A DNA stretch of 64,000 nt, taken from assembly GCA_028822935.1 (NCBI GenBank), contig JAPKCM010000002.1, positions 1-64,000 of the forward strand. The letters are read 5' to 3'. Within the stretch, counting starts at the first letter, position 1, and every line of letters starts with the position of its first letter. Source of the DNA: Akkermansiaceae bacterium. GTDB taxonomy: Bacteria > Verrucomicrobiota > Verrucomicrobiia > Verrucomicrobiales > Akkermansiaceae. Of the stretch, positions 1,648-63,034 are shown piece after piece. The notes beneath the pieces are model-generated. The model was not told the DNA's origin. It saw only the letters and a list, made by a program, of their open reading frames with translations, and ran no database searches. The translations under genes and the position numbers were made by a program.

Positions 1648-4119
1648 ATGAAGAATCCAGTCTCCTCTTTATCTCTCCTCCTCACAATCCTCCCGGGCTT
1701 GGCCTTTGCTCTGGACGTCTTTGCGCAGGAGACCGCAGACGTCACGCTGAAGATTCACCATCCTAATATTGAGTCTATCACGCGCTTTGCAGAGAACCCT
1801 GACATCGTTACGCCAATCGGAGTGGCAGTGGCACCAGATGGTCGGGTGTTTGTGCAAGAAAACCACACTCATAAACGAGGCAAGGATTATACCGGACCAG
1901 AAACCGATCGAATCCTCGTATTCGAAGACACGGATGGTGACGGCGTTTCTGACGAGCGGTCAGTGTTCTACGAAGGACTGATCTTCAGCACCGATCTTCT
2001 CTTTGGACCCGATGGCGACCTCTATGTGGCAACTCGCTGGTTCATCGGCCGCTTTCCTAAAGCAGCCAACCTGAAGAAGGCTAAAGGAGATCCTGAAATC
2101 ATCGTAGAGTGCCAGACCGATGGTAACTACCCGCACAACGGCGTCGGCGGGCTGGCCATCGATCCGGGCAATCCGGAAATACTGGCCTTCGGGTTTGGTG
2201 AAAATCTGGGCGAAGATTACACGTTCGTAGGATCTGATGGCATCGAAATCTCCGGAGGAGGAGAAGGTGGCTCGACCTACCAATGCAAAACCGATGGCTC
2301 TCAACTGAAACGCATTTCCACCGGTCATTGGAACGCCTTTGGAATGTGCTACGACCTCAACGGTAATCTGTTCTCCACCGACAATGACCCGAGCGGCACC
2401 CCTCCGAACCGGCTCCTCCACATCATTCCCGGGGCAGACTTCGGCTTTGAGTTTCGCTATGGCAGATCCGGACGCCATCCCTTGGTGGACTGGTATGGGA
2501 AAAATCCCGGAACGCTCGGTATGATCGGGGCGCTGGGCGAAGCCACCTGCGGCGTCATTCCTTTTGGCCCCGGCCAACTTCTGACCGCTTCATGGACCGA
2601 CAACCGGGTCGACCTCCATCCCCTCACCGAGTCAGGAGCTTCCTTCAAGGCGGGACGCGAGCCTTTTCTCAGCGGGCCCGACGACTTCCGTCCAGTTCAT
2701 TTCTCGTATTCACCTGATCACAAAGCACTCTACATCACGGACTGGGTCAGCCTCTCCTACCCGGTCCACGGGCAAGGGCGCATTTGGAAGGTCACGCTCA
2801 AAGAGCCAGTCGACCTGACGCCTTGGCCCAGAAAAAAAATTGAAATACTGGCACCGAAAATATCATTAACACTACTCGGCGATGCTGATCCTTACCTCCG
2901 CACTGCTGCGATGGAAACACTGAGGCAGCACTCTGACATTCTCAAATCCTTCGACTGGAAAGCAGAGTCCAATCCTGTGGCGAGAGCCCACTATGCGGTG
3001 GCTTTGAAACGCGCGGATCCCATTGGAAATGCTGGCATCATTCCCGAGTTGCTTGGTGACGTCGATTCTGATGTTAGATATGTCGGTATAAAGTGGATTG
3101 CTGACGAAAAGCAGAGCCAATACCGCGAGCAGTTGAGCGCCCAATTGGATCGCAACGGCTTGAAGCGACGCGACCTGCTCGCCGTGGTTGCCGCCCTCGC
3201 CGAAGTCAGCGGAGACCTGAGTAAGGAATTCTCCCCCGGCGATGCTCTACTCGAGTTGGCACTCGACGATAGCAAAATCCAATTCCTGCGCTCTCTCGCA
3301 CTGCACGGTGTGCCGATCGGTCACAAAGGACTGACGATTGGCGCGCTCAGAAAACTTGCTAAATCAAAAGGTAAAGCCTTGCAACGCGAAGCGGTTCGCG
3401 CCCTCGCTATTCATCCGGACCCGACCCGTGCTGAGACTCTCGCCAGACTTGCTGCGAACGCAAACCTCGATGCCAGCGTTCGCGCCGACGCCATCGCCGG
3501 CCTCGCATCGTTTGCCGAAGACCACCAGGAATCCCTTAAAGAACTTGCTAGCTCCTCTGAGGCGACTGTCGCCAAAGAGGCCACGCGCACCCTTGAATCA
3601 GCCGGCCTGCAACCGCGTGAACTTGCCACCAAACCACCCTTCACTGACCTCGCCGCCTGGGAAGCGATGCTCGACGACGTGCCTGGCGAACCCAACCTGG
3701 CCGCAGGTCGACGCCTCTTCTTCCACCAGCGCCTTGCGACCTGCTCCAACTGCCACGCCATCAACGGTCGCGGACTGGAAGTGGGCCCTGACCTGACCAC
3801 GATCGGCCGCCAGGCAGACGGCGGACGCAGCTGGGTGCTCACTCATATCCTCGATCCCAACGCGGAGGTCGCCCCCTACTTTCGTCCGCAAATGATCACG
3901 ACCCGCGACGGCCAGACCCGGATGGGATTCGTTCTCGGAAAAGAAGGAAAAGCCCTGGGCTACATCGGACCGGATGGAAAAAAGTTTTCGGTAATCAAGG
4001 CCGACGTGACAGCTCGGGAGGAACTCCCGATCTCTCTCATGCCCCCCGGATTGCTCATGCCTTTATCGGCAGAAGAGATCCGCGATTTGCTGGCTTATAT
4101 TCTGGAGGGAAGAGAGTAG
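1648..4119 (+). CDS. PVC-type membrane-bound dehydrogenase with C-terminal cytochrome c domain
   Basis: 823 residues. The ATG at 1648 is chosen because it opens a signal peptide (MKNPVSSLSLLLTILPGLAFA); earlier in-frame codons run into the amidohydrolase relic. Residues about 40-390 form a sugar-dehydrogenase-like beta-propeller ('PIGVAVAPDGRVFVQENH', 'DTDGDGVSDE', 'NGVGGLAIDPGNPE'). About 400-690 are HEAT-like helices. A heme c motif, C699-S-N-C702-H703, sits in the PVC-specific C-terminal heme domain ('NCHAINGRGLEVGPDL'). These fusions are common in Planctomycetes and Verrucomicrobia and are thought to oxidise sugars or sugar-derived compounds in the periplasm, but the substrate is unknown. 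The kinase gene follows after 12 bp, so the three genes are probably one operon with an operator upstream. Confidence 0.85.
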   Translation: MKNPVSSLSLLLTILPGLAFALDVFAQETADVTLKIHHPNIESITRFAENPDIVTPIGVAVAPDGRVFVQENHTHKRGKDYTGPETDRILVFEDTDGDGVSDERSVFYEGLIFSTDLLFGPDGDLYVATRWFIGRFPKAANLKKAKGDPEIIVECQTDGNYPHNGVGGLAIDPGNPEILAFGFGENLGEDYTFVGSDGIEISGGGEGGSTYQCKTDGSQLKRISTGHWNAFGMCYDLNGNLFSTDNDPSGTPPNRLLHIIPGADFGFEFRYGRSGRHPLVDWYGKNPGTLGMIGALGEATCGVIPFGPGQLLTASWTDNRVDLHPLTESGASFKAGREPFLSGPDDFRPVHFSYSPDHKALYITDWVSLSYPVHGQGRIWKVTLKEPVDLTPWPRKKIEILAPKISLTLLGDADPYLRTAAMETLRQHSDILKSFDWKAESNPVARAHYAVALKRADPIGNAGIIPELLGDVDSDVRYVGIKWIADEKQSQYREQLSAQLDRNGLKRRDLLAVVAALAEVSGDLSKEFSPGDALLELALDDSKIQFLRSLALHGVPIGHKGLTIGALRKLAKSKGKALQREAVRALAIHPDPTRAETLARLAANANLDASVRADAIAGLASFAEDHQESLKELASSSEATVAKEATRTLESAGLQPRELATKPPFTDLAAWEAMLDDVPGEPNLAAGRRLFFHQRLATCSNCHAINGRGLEVGPDLTTIGRQADGGRSWVLTHILDPNAEVAPYFRPQMITTRDGQTRMGFVLGKEGKALGYIGPDGKKFSVIKADVTAREELPISLMPPGLLMPLSAEEIRDLLAYILEGRE

Positions 4120-56106: not shown

Positions 56107-57201
56107 ATGTCAGATACCACTACCATTACCCTAGGAGAGCGCACTTTCGTTCTCGATAAAGACAAGGCGCAGGCGGCATTTGACGCAAAAAAGGTGATTA
56201 ACGGGCGTGAAACGATGTTCTTCAACATCCTTCCCCTAAAATATCAGTGGGCCTACGACCTCTACAAGACGATGAAGTCGAACCACTGGGAGCCCGAGGA
56301 CATCCAGATGCAGACCGATATCGGTCAGTGGCAGGGGGATTCGATCACCGACGCCGAGCGTTGGATCATTAAGATGGGTATCGGTTACTTTTCTGCTGCC
56401 GAAGGCATCGTGGGAGACAACATCATTCACGTCGTCCGAGAACTGATGACCGCTCCCGAACTCAAGTTGGTTCTCGGACGCCATGCGCATGAGGAAAACA
56501 TCCACGCGGACTCCCTCGTCTACATGATTTCCTCTCTCGGACTCAATCCGCACGAATGCGAGGCCATGTTCGAGGACGTGCCCACCATCAAGGCGAAGAA
56601 CAATTTCGTCGTGAGTAATTCCCGCGGTTTGCGCCGTGACATGGATCTTACCAAACTCGAAGACAAGCAGGCGCTCGCCAAGAACATCTTCCTTTTCGGC
56701 CAAGTCATGGAAGGGACCCAGTTCTACGGCCTCTTCGGCATGATCCTGAGCCTCTACCGTCAGAATAAGTTCCCCGGAATCGGCCAAATGTTCCGCTACA
56801 CCTTGCGCGACGAGTCCAATCACATCGAAGTCTTCCGCAATCTTCTCAATGCGCTCGTCACTGAGAACCCCGACATTTGGACTCCCGAGTTCAAAGAGGA
56901 GCTTCGCCAGACCATGGCCGAGGGCGTCCGCCTTGAGAAAGACTTCATCAAGGACTGCCTCCCAGTCGGCTCTGTCGGTCTCTCAGTCGACGAGTTCGAC
57001 CAGTATATCGACCACATCGCGGACCGCCGCCTTGTCAATTGCCACCTCGAACCTCTCGCTGGCAATACGACTAATCCCTTCCCTTGGCTTACCGAGGCCA
57101 TCGACCTCAAGAAGGAGCAGAACTTTTTCGAAGGAAAAGTGACCGAATATCAAAAGGCTTCCGCCCTCGAAGAATCCGGCTACGACGACGACGACCTTTA
57201 G
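56107..57201 (+). CDS. nrdB: Ribonucleotide reductase small subunit, class Ic type
   Basis: 364 residues. The ferritin-like metal ligands are all readable: E99 ('YFSAAEGIVGDNI'), E130 and H133 ('EENIHADSLVYM'), E202 ('QVMEGTQFYG'), E236 and H239 ('RDESNHIEVF'). The residue four after H133, where class Ia enzymes have the radical Tyr, is L137. The first ligand is Glu rather than Asp. Both traits match the Chlamydia trachomatis class Ic group (E89, F127), which uses a Mn/Fe centre in place of a tyrosyl radical. Subunit R2 starts the radical chain for dNTP synthesis. nrdA follows after 134 bp. Confidence 0.95.
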   Translation: MSDTTTITLGERTFVLDKDKAQAAFDAKKVINGRETMFFNILPLKYQWAYDLYKTMKSNHWEPEDIQMQTDIGQWQGDSITDAERWIIKMGIGYFSAAEGIVGDNIIHVVRELMTAPELKLVLGRHAHEENIHADSLVYMISSLGLNPHECEAMFEDVPTIKAKNNFVVSNSRGLRRDMDLTKLEDKQALAKNIFLFGQVMEGTQFYGLFGMILSLYRQNKFPGIGQMFRYTLRDESNHIEVFRNLLNALVTENPDIWTPEFKEELRQTMAEGVRLEKDFIKDCLPVGSVGLSVDEFDQYIDHIADRRLVNCHLEPLAGNTTNPFPWLTEAIDLKKEQNFFEGKVTEYQKASALEESGYDDDDL

Positions 57202-57335
57202 GCGGCTCCGCCTCAGTTCAAAGCCAATTCCAGTGAACTAAAAACTGAGGATTTTCAACTGCCTTCAGCTCCACTTTCCATTCTCAAAAAACCTTCCGCT
57301 CCGCCCACTCAATCTCTCACGCACTCACACAGACA

Positions 57336-60300
57336 ATGTATCGCTCAATCACCCTTGAAGAAGATATCGCCCTTAAAGAAACGGTTTCCTCCCGTTATGC
57401 GAACCAAGATACCGTTCCCTATGCTTGGCGTGAAATCCTCTCATCCGAGAACCGCGCTCCTGTCCCGGAGATCACCGTGACTCGTGGTAGAAAAGAGGAA
57501 ACGTTTTCTCTTTCAGATGTCGCTGATGCCATCGGTGAGTCACTCACCAACCTCCTCATTTCCCGCAAGGAACCTGAGGACACCATCTTTTCCGAAAAGA
57601 ATCGGTCGTTTGTTTCTTCGGTCGCCAATCGTGTCTCAAACAGCCTAATGCGCGAGGTCCAGCGCGGCGGCCAACTCAAGCTGAGCCAAAACGATCTCTA
57701 CCTCCTCATCGAGAAAGCGCTTATTGAAAATGACGCGCACGATGTCGCCAAGTCCCTCGTTTTCCAGCGCTCGCTCGAGAACAAAGGCGAGATCTCCGTC
57801 GAGGAAAACCCCTCGGTCATGCCCGTTCGTCTCATTCGCCGAAACGGCAACGTCGTCCCTTGGTCCGAGACCAAGATCGAGAATGCCGTTTCGCGTGCTT
57901 TTCTCACTGTCCGCCACGAGACCGGCCCAGCGGCTTCCATTGCCCACGCCGTAACAGACCTCGTCCGCGGTGGCGATTCTGCCTTCGTCCACATCGAAGA
58001 CGTGCAGGATCTCGTTCAAGAAGAACTCATGCGTCAGGGCTTTTTTAAAGTCGCTGCGCATTACGTCCGTTACCGCGACGAGCGCACCCGCATGCGTGCT
58101 GACAATCCCGAGATCTTTGAGGATCCCGCACAGGAATCGATGGTCGTCGTCACTGATGTCGATGGCGTTTCCGCTTTCTGGGATGGCTCTGAGCTCAAGA
58201 AGCGCATCCAGTTTGCCATGATCGGACTCAAGCTCTCGGTTTCCGAGGAAGAAATTGAAAAGGAACTCCGCCGCTCTATCGGTGCCGAGATTTCCGCTGT
58301 CGATCTCAAGCAGACCATCATTCTCAATTCTAAGACCCTGCTAGAGAAAGACTCCGAGATGGCCAAGTTCTCCGGCCGTATCCTTCTCTCCTACATCTAC
58401 GAGGAAGTCCTTCCCTGGAATATCCAGACCGATGGTGTCGAGACTCTCAAGGCCGCCCACCGCGATAATTTTAAGGCCTACCTCCTTCACGGAGCGGGCA
58501 TCAAACGCGTCTCCCAGGACATCATCGATAAGTATGATATTGACCGCCTTGCTGATGCGCTCGATCCCACCGCCGACCTCGACTTCGAGTTCCTCGGCAT
58601 CCAGACCCTCTACGATCGCTACCTCAACGTTGATAAGACCGGCGAAAAAGACCGCCGTATGGAAACTCCCCAGTATTTTTGGATGCGTGTTTCCATGGGA
58701 CTCTTCAAAGCTGAGACCTCCAATGCCGAGGGCTGGGTCATCCGCCTCTACAATCTTTATAAAGGGCGCAAGTTTTGCTCCTCCACCCCGACTCTCTTCA
58801 ACTCCGGCACCCTTCACAGCCAGCTCTCCTCCTGCTACCTCTACAAGGTCGATGACTCCATTGAGTCCATAATGCAGCGGGGTATCGCCGAGAACGCCTA
58901 CCTCTCCAAGTGGGCCGGCGGCCTCGGTGGTTCTTGGACCGCTGTTCGCGGAATCGGTGGCTACATTCAAGGCACCAATGGCGAATCCCAAGGCGTCATT
59001 CCTTTCCTGAAGCTTCACAACGACCAGCTCATCGCCGTCAACCAAGGCGGCAAGCGTCGCGGCTCCGGCTGCGCCTACCTCGAGTCCTGGCACAATGACA
59101 TCGAGGACTTCCTTGAGCTCCGCGTGAATGTCGGCGACGAGCGCCGTCGCACCCACGACATGAACACCGCGAACTGGATTCCCGACCTTTTCATGAAGCG
59201 CATGGAAGCGCGTCAGAACTGGACCTTGTTCCGTTCCAACGAAACTCCCGATCTCCACGACCTCTTTGGTAAGGCCTTCGAGCAACGCTACGCGGAATAC
59301 GAGGTGAAGGCTGAAAAGGGCGAGATCTGGTCCCGTAAGGTCGAGGCTATCGACCTCTGGAAGAAGATGCTCAAAATGATCTTCGAGACCGGTCATCCTT
59401 GGATCACCTTTAAGGACCCGTGCAACGTCCGCTCCCCGCAGGACCACACTGGCGTCATTCACTCCAGCAACCTCTGCACCGAGATCACCCTCAACACCTC
59501 GGACGAAGAGACCGCCGTGTGCAACCTCGGCTCCGTCGTCCTCGACACCCACATCACCAAGGACGGCGCGCTCGATCACGATATGCTCCGTGAGACCATC
59601 ACTGTCGCCATCCGGGCGCTCGATAACGTCATCGACATCAACTTCTACCCCACCGATGCCGCCAAGACGGCCAACTCGCGCCACCGCCCCATCGGCCTCG
59701 GCGTCATGGGGCTCCAGAATGCCCTCTTTAAAAAGGGTCTCCAATTCGCCTCCGAGCCCGCCATGGAATTCAACGACGAGTTCATGGAAGCGATCGCTTA
59801 CTATGCCTACGGCGCCAGCAGCGAACTCGCCGGAGAGCGGGGGACTTACGGCAGCTATAAGGGATCCAAGTGGGACCGCGGCATCCTTCCCCAGGATACC
59901 GTCGATACCCTCGAGGACGAACGTGGCCTCAAAATTGACGTCCCCCGTGGTGGGAAAATGGATTGGCGTCCCGTCCGTGAGTCCATCGCTCAGCACGGCA
60001 TGCGAAACTCCAATGTTCTCGCCATCGCGCCCACCGCCACCATTTCGAACATCATGGGAACTACCCCATGCATCGAGCCGAATTACACCAACCTTTTCGT
60101 CAAGAGTAACCTTGGGGGCGACTTCATCGTCCTCAACGGCCAGCTTGTCGATGACCTCAAAGCCGAAGGCCTTTGGAACGAAGAGATGCTCGACCAATTG
60201 AAATACTTCAATGGCGAGCTCGCTAACATCGAGGGCATCCCCGACCACCTCAAGAAGAAGCACCAGACCGTCTTCGAGATCGGCTATGAGCACATCATCG

Positions 60301-60581
60301 ATGCCGCCGCCCGCCGCCAGAAGTGGATCGACCAGAGCCAGAGCGTGAACCTCTTCCTCGCCAACCCAGACATGAAGTCTCTCAGCCACATGTATCGCCG
60401 CGCCTGGCATACCGGCATGAAGACGACCTACTACCTCCGCTCCCTCGGAGCGAGCGAGATTGAAAAATCAAACGACAAAGGCGCCCCGACCACCAAGAAA
60501 AAGGACTACACTCCAGAAGAGAAAACAGCCTGCAGTATCGACGCGGTGATGAATGGTGAAGAGTGCGAGGCTTGTCAGTAA
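57336..60581 (+). CDS. nrdA: Ribonucleotide reductase large subunit with multiple ATP cones
   Basis: 1081 residues, far longer than the E. coli enzyme (about 760), because the N-terminus holds repeated ATP-cone modules: 'PEITVTRGRKEETFSLSDVA', 'MPVRLIRRNGNVVPWSETKI', and a third, weaker one near 'VVVTDVDGVSAFWDGSELKK'. The catalytic core has the redox and radical Cys: C500 ('SSCYLYKVDDS'), C714 ('NLCTEI') and C729 ('AVCNLGS'). The mobile C-terminal pair is C1077/C1080 ('CEACQ'). Length and cone number resemble chlamydial NrdA, which fits the class Ic NrdB next to it. It reduces ribonucleoside diphosphates; the cones sense ATP/dATP. Confidence 0.96.
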   Translation: MYRSITLEEDIALKETVSSRYANQDTVPYAWREILSSENRAPVPEITVTRGRKEETFSLSDVADAIGESLTNLLISRKEPEDTIFSEKNRSFVSSVANRVSNSLMREVQRGGQLKLSQNDLYLLIEKALIENDAHDVAKSLVFQRSLENKGEISVEENPSVMPVRLIRRNGNVVPWSETKIENAVSRAFLTVRHETGPAASIAHAVTDLVRGGDSAFVHIEDVQDLVQEELMRQGFFKVAAHYVRYRDERTRMRADNPEIFEDPAQESMVVVTDVDGVSAFWDGSELKKRIQFAMIGLKLSVSEEEIEKELRRSIGAEISAVDLKQTIILNSKTLLEKDSEMAKFSGRILLSYIYEEVLPWNIQTDGVETLKAAHRDNFKAYLLHGAGIKRVSQDIIDKYDIDRLADALDPTADLDFEFLGIQTLYDRYLNVDKTGEKDRRMETPQYFWMRVSMGLFKAETSNAEGWVIRLYNLYKGRKFCSSTPTLFNSGTLHSQLSSCYLYKVDDSIESIMQRGIAENAYLSKWAGGLGGSWTAVRGIGGYIQGTNGESQGVIPFLKLHNDQLIAVNQGGKRRGSGCAYLESWHNDIEDFLELRVNVGDERRRTHDMNTANWIPDLFMKRMEARQNWTLFRSNETPDLHDLFGKAFEQRYAEYEVKAEKGEIWSRKVEAIDLWKKMLKMIFETGHPWITFKDPCNVRSPQDHTGVIHSSNLCTEITLNTSDEETAVCNLGSVVLDTHITKDGALDHDMLRETITVAIRALDNVIDINFYPTDAAKTANSRHRPIGLGVMGLQNALFKKGLQFASEPAMEFNDEFMEAIAYYAYGASSELAGERGTYGSYKGSKWDRGILPQDTVDTLEDERGLKIDVPRGGKMDWRPVRESIAQHGMRNSNVLAIAPTATISNIMGTTPCIEPNYTNLFVKSNLGGDFIVLNGQLVDDLKAEGLWNEEMLDQLKYFNGELANIEGIPDHLKKKHQTVFEIGYEHIIDAAARRQKWIDQSQSVNLFLANPDMKSLSHMYRRAWHTGMKTTYYLRSLGASEIEKSNDKGAPTTKKKDYTPEEKTACSIDAVMNGEECEACQ

Positions 60582-61603: not shown

Positions 61604-61765
61604 GAATTTGGAGACTCTGGGAGTAGCTTTAGATCAATGTGCGCCGGATTCAAGGATGCATCCTCCATCCTGTATTTTCTCATGACGGAGCACATTATGA
61701 CAGAGGATCCGTCTTTCTATTGCCAAGCTTCCAAGATGATTCATTCGATGTAGGGTGGAAAAAGA

Positions 61766-63034
61766 ATGAGATTTTTATTCGCTTTTTTATTAGTCCTTCG
61801 GTTGCCCGCGGCTCCGATTCCCGACTTGGCCGTTGGCAGTCCTTTCCCCAATTTTTCTTTGGAAAATGTTTCCGGCGGTCAGATAAAGCCGGTTCGTTCC
61901 TATCTTAAGAAGAAGACGGTTCTTCATATTTTCGCTTCTTGGTGAGCGGGGTGTCGGAAGCACGTGCCAGGGTGGCATGCAAAGACGGCAGAGTTGGTGA
62001 AGAAAGGGAAACTTCAAAATCTAGGGATTGTTCAGGAGCAACATCCAGATCGGGCTCGCTTGTTCATGCAGTGGCAGAAGATGGATTGGCCCGTTTTAGC
62101 GGATCCATTTAATTTGCTAGAGGTAAAGGTCGTGCCGATCACCATGCTGGTGGATGGATCAGGGATCATTCGGTATAAGAATCCGTCAAAGAAGGATTTA
62201 GAGGAATTCATGGCGGCGCTCTATCCGCGGACGACGCTTCAAGAAGTGGACTATTCGTTCGATGGTCGTTTGGAAGCCCGGGAGAAGGAGTTGGAGAAAA
62301 GCCCAAAGAGTCCGACGGCCCATTTTCGCTTGGGGGTGGCCTTGCGGCAAAGGTTTGATTCGCAGGAAAGAAAGGCGGGTGATTTTGGGAAGGCCATTTC
62401 TGCGTGGCAAAAGGCGCTCGAATTTCGGTCGGATCAATATATTTGGAGAAGACGAATACAGCAATATGGACCTCGTCTCGATAAGCCTTATTCGTTCTAT
62501 GACTGGGTCAACAAAGCCCGCGTAGAGCTGAAGGCTCGCAATGAAGTGCCGCATCCTTTGAAGGCCAAGCCGAAAGGGTCGGAGTTCGCCTATCCAGGAA
62601 AAAGGAATGGGGCGTTGGTGATTCCGTCGAAACATCCCGACCCCGAGGGGAAGGTTCCATCGGATCACCAGAAGTTGGTCTCGGTATCGACGGTGATTGT
62701 TCCGTCGACAAAAGGGGACGGAGGGGCGGTGAGAGTGCATTTGCGATTCACGCCTTCAAAGATTAAGGCAACCCACTGGACCAATGAAGCCGGGAACGTG
62801 AGCTTTCACCTCAAACCCAATGCCGCGTTTACGCTCCATGATTTGCAGGGAGCGGGAAAGCCTCCGGAAGTTGCCGCAAGTTCTGAAGAGAGGGTGATCG
62901 AATTCGAACTACGTCCGACCAAGGGAAAGGCGCTCCCTGAAAAGATTGATGGGGCGGCCTATTACTTTGTTTGTAAGGGCGAGGCTGGTGTTTGTCAGCT
63001 TCTCAGGCATCCGGTGGCGATTTCAACTCGCTAG
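61766..63034 (+). CDS. Thioredoxin/TlpA-like protein, predicted selenoprotein (TGA = Sec60)
   Basis: 422 residues from the ATG at 61766 if TGA at 61943-61945 is read through. Signal peptide 1-16. A TlpA/AhpC-type thioredoxin fold follows: 'PFPNFSLENVSGGQ', 'TVLHIFASW-U60-AGCRKHVP', 'LGIVQEQHPDRARLFMQWQK' and the cis-Pro region 'VKVVPITMLVDGSGIIRY'. The TGA replaces the first Cys of CxxC (U60-A-G-C63). After the domain come a TPR-like stretch ('PTAHFRLGVALRQRF') and a C-terminal beta domain. The frame is intact for 363 codons after the TGA, which argues against decay. An alternative is a late start (GTG 61964) without the active site, which would make little sense. Confidence 0.8.
61943..61979 (+). 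promoter_or_regulatory. In-frame TGA with SECIS-like hairpin
   Basis: After the TGA (61943-61945), CGTGCCA (61963-61969) pairs with TGGCATG (61973-61979) around the loop GGG: seven pairs, one of them G-U. The apical loop starts 24 bases after the TGA and begins with G, which agrees with published bacterial SECIS rules (distance about 16-37 bases, G among the first loop bases). It would recruit SelB to insert selenocysteine. Confidence 0.65.

Follow-up and report, generated by a model that had tools for sequence, protein, structure and literature searches.

A gene on the forward strand of a 64,000-nucleotide stretch of Akkermansiaceae DNA (hereafter the window, meaning the whole stretch analysed) almost certainly encodes a selenoprotein, in which the UGA at position 61943 is predicted to be read as selenocysteine (Sec60). 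This assignment draws on the selenocysteine (Sec) machinery of the genome, the conservation of the TGA in homologues, a covarying hairpin, synonymous constraint, and equal selection on either side of the codon. The predicted product joins a redoxin domain, a TPR-like helical region, and a C-terminal domain resembling the N-terminal domain of DsbD, laid out in the window as follows:

61753–61759, plus strand: Shine-Dalgarno-like GGGTGGA, found by inspection
61766–63034, plus strand: selenoprotein gene of 422 residues, Sec60 included, ending in TAG, from the frame and homologues
61766–61822, plus strand: N-terminal hydrophobic stretch, probable signal peptide, by inspection; the N-terminus is hydrophobic in relatives too
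61823–62230, plus strand: redoxin domain of ResA/CcmG/TlpA type, residues 20–155, from Pfam and structure
61943–61945, plus strand: predicted Sec codon TGA (Sec60), the same codon being TGA in 37 of 37 checked homologues
61952–61954, plus strand: Cys63, second residue of UxxC, invariant in 36 sequences
61963–61979, plus strand: putative SECIS hairpin with 7-bp stem and GGG loop, from covariation, folding, and synonymous constraint
62270–62536, plus strand: TPR-like helical region, residues 169–257, from model helices and TPR profiles
62435–62509, plus strand: signature QYIWRRRIQQYGPRLDKPYSFYDWV, residues 224–248, nearly invariant in the alignment of members
62633–63031, plus strand: DsbD-N-like beta domain, residues 290–422, from fold, Foldseek, VIA-align, and profile
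62972–62974, plus strand: Cys403, first of an invariant C-terminal pair (36 sequences), aligned to a DsbD-N Cys
62993–62995, plus strand: Cys410, second of that pair (36 sequences), aligned to a DsbD-N Cys

The translated frame reads MRFLFAFLL...HIFASW-U-AGCRKHVPGWH..., with its ATG (61766) placed 6 bases downstream of the GGGTGGA and its TAG stop at 63032–63034. Frame reading confirmed that one TGA alone breaks an otherwise intact frame of 422 residues, and that it does so at the first Cys position of a thioredoxin-type CxxC (ASW-U-AGC), as the original prediction had stated. The stretch beyond is open as claimed, although the count of 363 given for it includes the stop, which leaves 362 open codons. 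Comparison with the nearest relative (L010) gives a pN of 0.18 and a pS of 0.79 ahead of the TGA, against 0.18 and 0.77 past it, values alike enough to place both halves under equal purifying selection.

The genome carrying the window (4.59 Mb in 156 contigs, 96.1% complete) has close relatives among Akkermansiaceae and other Verrucomicrobiales genomes, and it encodes SelA, SelB, SelD, and tRNA-Sec, the set whose absence would have counted against the prediction. The selA gene (456 aa) lies on the same contig as the window, ~64 kb further on; selB (644 aa) scores 278 bits against a cut-off of 242, and the tRNA-Sec, with anticodon UCA, scores 53.9 bits against a cut-off of 47. The selD gene (L121, positions 1828–2880, minus strand) has an in-frame TGA of its own, read as Sec (ASCGGUASK), and most selD genes of relatives have one as well. 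Of ten genomes that carry the window gene, nine have selA, a co-occurrence in the expected direction that is not significant (p 0.077); the sole carrier lacking selA is a genome that is 72% complete. A reassigned UGA code was considered and rejected because UGA ends other genes here: TGA terminates 5 of the 28 long ORFs in the window, and it also serves as the gene's own terminator in the relatives L013, L015, and L017.

Relatives of the gene are 36–72% identical across the near genomes, the order, and the Planctomycetota taken together. They were recovered from 10 of 58 near genomes; nine have exactly one TGA within the match, and the tenth ends at a contig edge before the site. Across the order the gene occurs in 18 of 387 genomes, and in the Planctomycetota in 41 of 392, each match with one TGA. 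A 388-genome sample of the whole phylum turned up nothing beyond the window genome and a single further member of its family, which places the gene, as far as Verrucomicrobiota go, mainly in the window genome's order. Phages and plasmids returned only distant single redoxin domains, and a viral scan confirmed none. Recurrence of the TGA in independently assembled genomes shows that sequencing error does not explain it.

The codon at position 60 was then read directly in 37 sequences from the two phyla, and it is TGA in all of them. Identity to the window protein falls as low as 36% among homologues, and the two phyla are split in the tree with high support and long branches, which argues that the TGA has been conserved over the long term and does not reflect a shared error. 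The original prediction had proposed looking for Cys at this position in some relatives and UGA in others; the site is indeed invariant, but with UGA throughout and Cys in none. At E ≤ 1e-20, the full architecture turned up with neither Cys, nor Ser, nor any other residue in place of Sec in the 387 genomes of the order, the 388 of the phylum sample, or the 392 planctomycete genomes; the search covered these two phyla, scored about four candidates per genome, and could miss very divergent Cys forms. With no Cys form in >1,000 genomes searched, the family is a good case for what Sec offers beyond Cys. Where gene callers treat UGA as a stop, genes of this kind are truncated, and a conserved redox enzyme can readily escape notice in these two environmental phyla, which are barely covered in the selenoproteome papers searched.

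The 7-bp hairpin with GGG loop reported after the TGA is real, with arms at 61963–61969 and 61973–61979 that form seven pairs, one G-U among them. Its distance of 24 bases applies to the loop, while the stem begins 17 bases past the TGA. The bacterial SECIS model described in PMC13188914 has a loop of 3–9 nt, a stem of 4–16 bp, G in the first two loop positions, a loop 16–37 nt after the UGA, and a minimum free energy at or below −7.5 kcal/mol. The window hairpin, with its GGG loop, 7 bp, 24 nt, and −8.3 kcal/mol, falls within this model on each count. No Rfam family covers the hairpin.

Six modelled pairs are formed in 97.2% of cells (36 distinct sequences), and the pairing partners vary, with pair 22–36 found as G-C, G-U, C-G, and A-U, and pair 24–34 as G-C, G-U, and A-U. 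Cells changed on both sides number 11 against a shuffled mean of 2.4. The covariation score is 0.270 against 0.149 for shuffles, which ignore relatedness (0 of 500 as high), and the slid controls, which account for it, score lower than the hairpin too (best 0.168). In the clearest cases the compensatory changes shift the amino acids in step: GTG...CAC (Val, His) is replaced by CTG...CAG (Leu, Gln) in L080 and L082, and by ATA...TAT (Ile, Tyr) in L070. The Val codon of the hairpin is nearly always GTG (when two sequences agree in the residue, their codons agree 94% of the time vs. 35% expected) and shows the largest synonymous-constraint excess of the gene, and 5-codon windows over the hairpin rank top of the gene for such constraint. 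Taken over its full 48 bases, the stretch has a folding energy no better than that of shuffles (z −0.8), so the case for a SECIS element rests on covariation and synonymous constraint.

Machinery, site conservation, and recurrence across genomes thus all support the interpretation of the TGA as a Sec codon. The codon shared by all 37 checked homologues, the covarying hairpin, and the matching selection on either side put the pattern well outside chance. That the TGA is instead a real stop (the gene being a pseudogene, the letters missequenced, or two short proteins encoded apart) has on its side the normal use of TGA as terminator in this genome and a GTG-started ORF downstream (61964–63034), but is barely credible given a codon kept in every checked homologue of two phyla across long branches, equal purifying selection before and after it, a covarying hairpin, a full Sec machinery, and a downstream ORF that would begin inside the redoxin domain without the catalytic residue.

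A model of the full protein (AF2, 17 sequences, mean pLDDT 84) places the redoxin domain first, then five helices, then the beta domain, whose modelled extent is residues 305–420. The redoxin domain exceeds the Pfam gathering cut-offs of PF00578 (39.8 bits over 26) and PF08534 (31.1 over 26.6), and NCBIfam and structure comparison put it nearest to ResA, CcmG/DsbE, and proteins like them; peroxiredoxins also appear among its structural matches, with Z about 10–11. TPR profiles match the helical region in up to half of the members. Within it lies the signature, which across members reads QYIWRRRIQQYGPRLDKPYxFYDWV and is nearly invariant in two phyla. Together with a separate fold of the beta domain, these results bear out both the TPR-like middle and the beta domain at the C-terminus that had been proposed from the letters.

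The beta domain, folded alone from 36 sequences, reached a pLDDT of 94, and the first eight Foldseek matches to it are DsbD N-terminal domains. VIA-align gives Z 8.5 with the ScsB N-domain (3.4 Å, 110 residues) and 8.0 with Neisseria DsbD-N (3.2 Å, 104 residues), although adaptin-ear domains reach Z 7.9, near enough to these values that the fold alone does not settle kinship with DsbD-N. Cys403 and Cys410 sit close to the domain's C-terminus, and both are kept in 36 of 36 sequences. In a profile comparison with DsbD_N of related genomes (E 1e-4, probability 57–58%), the alignment covers most of the domain, including its W..N region, and sets both cysteines on the redox pair of DsbD. The C-terminal domain of the window protein has no match in Pfam, PF11412 included, while 3 of 36 members match DsbD_N (PF11412) weakly (best E 0.005); a profile search against PDB sequences returned noise only. 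The domain is therefore probably a remote relative of DsbD-N that falls outside the PF11412 model as drawn, the remoteness following from the profile probability and the adaptin-ear scores. The genome also encodes DsbD and a stand-alone DsbD_N protein.

From sequence, models, and analogy, the gene product is, on balance, likely to be an exported thiol-disulfide reductase that uses Sec and is recycled in the manner of DsbD-N. By comparative genomics, UGA 61943 is almost certainly decoded as Sec60 through the hairpin at 61963–61979 with SelA, SelB, SelD, and tRNA-Sec. In the periplasm, the Sec60 selenolate may attack a disulfide (or peroxide) substrate, and Cys63 would resolve the intermediate to give a selenenylsulfide with Sec60. 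The Cys403–Cys410 pair, of the same or a neighbouring chain, could then reduce this Sec60–Cys63 bond, in the way that DsbD-N serves CcmG, and might in turn be re-reduced by the cell's DsbD. In PDB 1z5y, DsbD-N (chain D) and CcmG (chain E) form a disulfide-linked complex; the C-terminal domain matches chain D and the redoxin domain matches chain E, so both partners are matched by domains of one chain, a direct analogy for the relay. Details of this relay are offered with less confidence than its general form, and reduction is the preferred direction over oxidation. The invariant Cys pair gives a concrete, testable recycling route for a periplasmic selenoenzyme. More tentatively, these proteins may be a family of obligate selenoproteins, shared by Verrucomicrobiota and Planctomycetota, that has no Cys form, a one-chain CcmG-DsbD-like Sec-redoxin recycled intramolecularly; we rate this full reading at a little less than even odds.

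The selenoprotein could instead act chiefly as a periplasmic peroxidase, turning a peroxiredoxin-like selenol on hydroperoxides while its C-terminal domain binds a partner and carries no relay. This is unlikely, though it accounts for AhpC-TSA (PF00578) as the best Pfam match and for the peroxiredoxins among the structural matches, and Sec peroxidases are among the proteins described in PMC13188914. The Sec, however, sits in a UxxC at the CxxC position of ResA, CcmG, and TlpA, not in the peroxiredoxin PxxxTxxC/U motif; the best NCBIfam and structural matches are disulfide oxidoreductases, and the second invariant Cys pair suggests redox exchange.

That the selenoprotein oxidizes or isomerizes thiols in the periplasm, or handles a metal (copper) there, with its C-terminal Cys pair being structural, appears more doubtful still. 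TlpA-type proteins include metallochaperone reductants, and the Ig-like fold of the C-terminal domain resembles many non-redox domains as well, but the aligned members share no conserved metal ligands, their neighbourhoods hold no adjoining metal genes, and the Cys pair aligns by profile with the redox pair of DsbD. No conserved operon or partner gene is common to 35 neighbourhoods from both phyla, so gene context gives no hint of the substrate. The upstream neighbours in the window, at 56107–60581, encode both subunits of ribonucleotide reductase, small and large.

Sec-redoxins as a class are already known. Among the selenoproteins of the 2026 catalogue (PMC13188914) are Prx-like thiol:disulfide oxidoreductases (PF00578, UxxC), a ‘Redoxin family protein’ (PF08534, UxxC), and a TlpA-type family that contains UGC; its text mentions neither Verrucomicrobia nor a TPR fusion. 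The PF00578 and PF08534 representatives have the Pfam domain and UxxC motif in common with the window protein, and no TPR-like or DsbD-N-like part is described for them there; they are set apart by description, so overlap is possible. In the same text, the DsbD-like fusion is the rhodanese protein TsoB (NF045694, rhodanese/DsbD fusion-like), a selenoprotein with a DsbD-like part as in the window protein; TsoB differs in having a rhodanese, a UxxxxU motif, and two Sec, and the window protein has no NCBIfam match to NF045694. Nor does the window protein match GOS_C (NF045500), a UxxC Trx-like selenoprotein, at E up to 10. The Cys-based CcmG/DsbE, ResA, and TlpA thiol-disulfide oxidoreductases have the same redoxin fold and active-site position but lack the TPR-like and DsbD-N-like parts, and the N-terminal domain of DsbD/ScsB (PF11412) probably shares its Ig-like fold, and shares its redox Cys-pair position, with the C-terminal domain of the window protein, which differs in being fused C-terminally to a Sec-redoxin without a transmembrane part.

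The nearest named family is NF041054, WAxxUGC_long (ResA-like WAxxUGC motif-containing protein), which is probably the ‘UGC-containing TlpA disulfide reductase’ named in PMC13188914. Like the window family, it has a redoxin that carries Sec at the equivalent Trp-Sec position and leads into TPR-like helices, and in some window-family members the profile match spans both the redoxin and helical parts. Scores are far below its 300-bit cut-off (34.2 for the window protein, 48–66 for five other members). Planctomycete members of NF041054 read WASW-U-GC, one residue shorter than the WU-AGC of the window family; they are extended at the N-terminus and stop after the helices, so that the DsbD-N-like domain is missing. 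A weaker, WNYHRQ-type version of the QYIWRRRIQQYGPRLDKPYSFYDWV signature is found at the end of NF041054 proteins. One planctomycete relative of this family (L145) has neither Sec nor Cys at its active site (FASWDNSR), so the wider NF041054-related group also includes forms without redox residues.

No description of a Sec-redoxin/TPR-like/DsbD-N-like fusion was found in the main texts of the literature searched. The original prediction that such a fusion had not been described as a selenoprotein thus holds for the architecture within the literature and families searched, whereas the Sec-redoxin class itself was already catalogued in PMC13188914. What appears to be new is the three-domain architecture with its DsbD-N-like domain, some catalogue representatives having been compared by description.

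Two further UxxC proteins were seen in related genomes. Sister genomes of the same genus (L020, L024, L027–L033, L035, and L037) encode a second UxxC selenoprotein, with a long helical N-terminal part and then a redoxin reading DFWGDW-U-GPCRAMYPHERSLV, in which TGA occupies the same codon in 11 of 11; a search with the window protein did not find it in the window's own genome. Another genome of the order (G040) encodes at L025, positions 1312–2136, a short redoxin whose TGA falls in ASW-U-GPC and which has a hydrophobic segment at its C-terminus.
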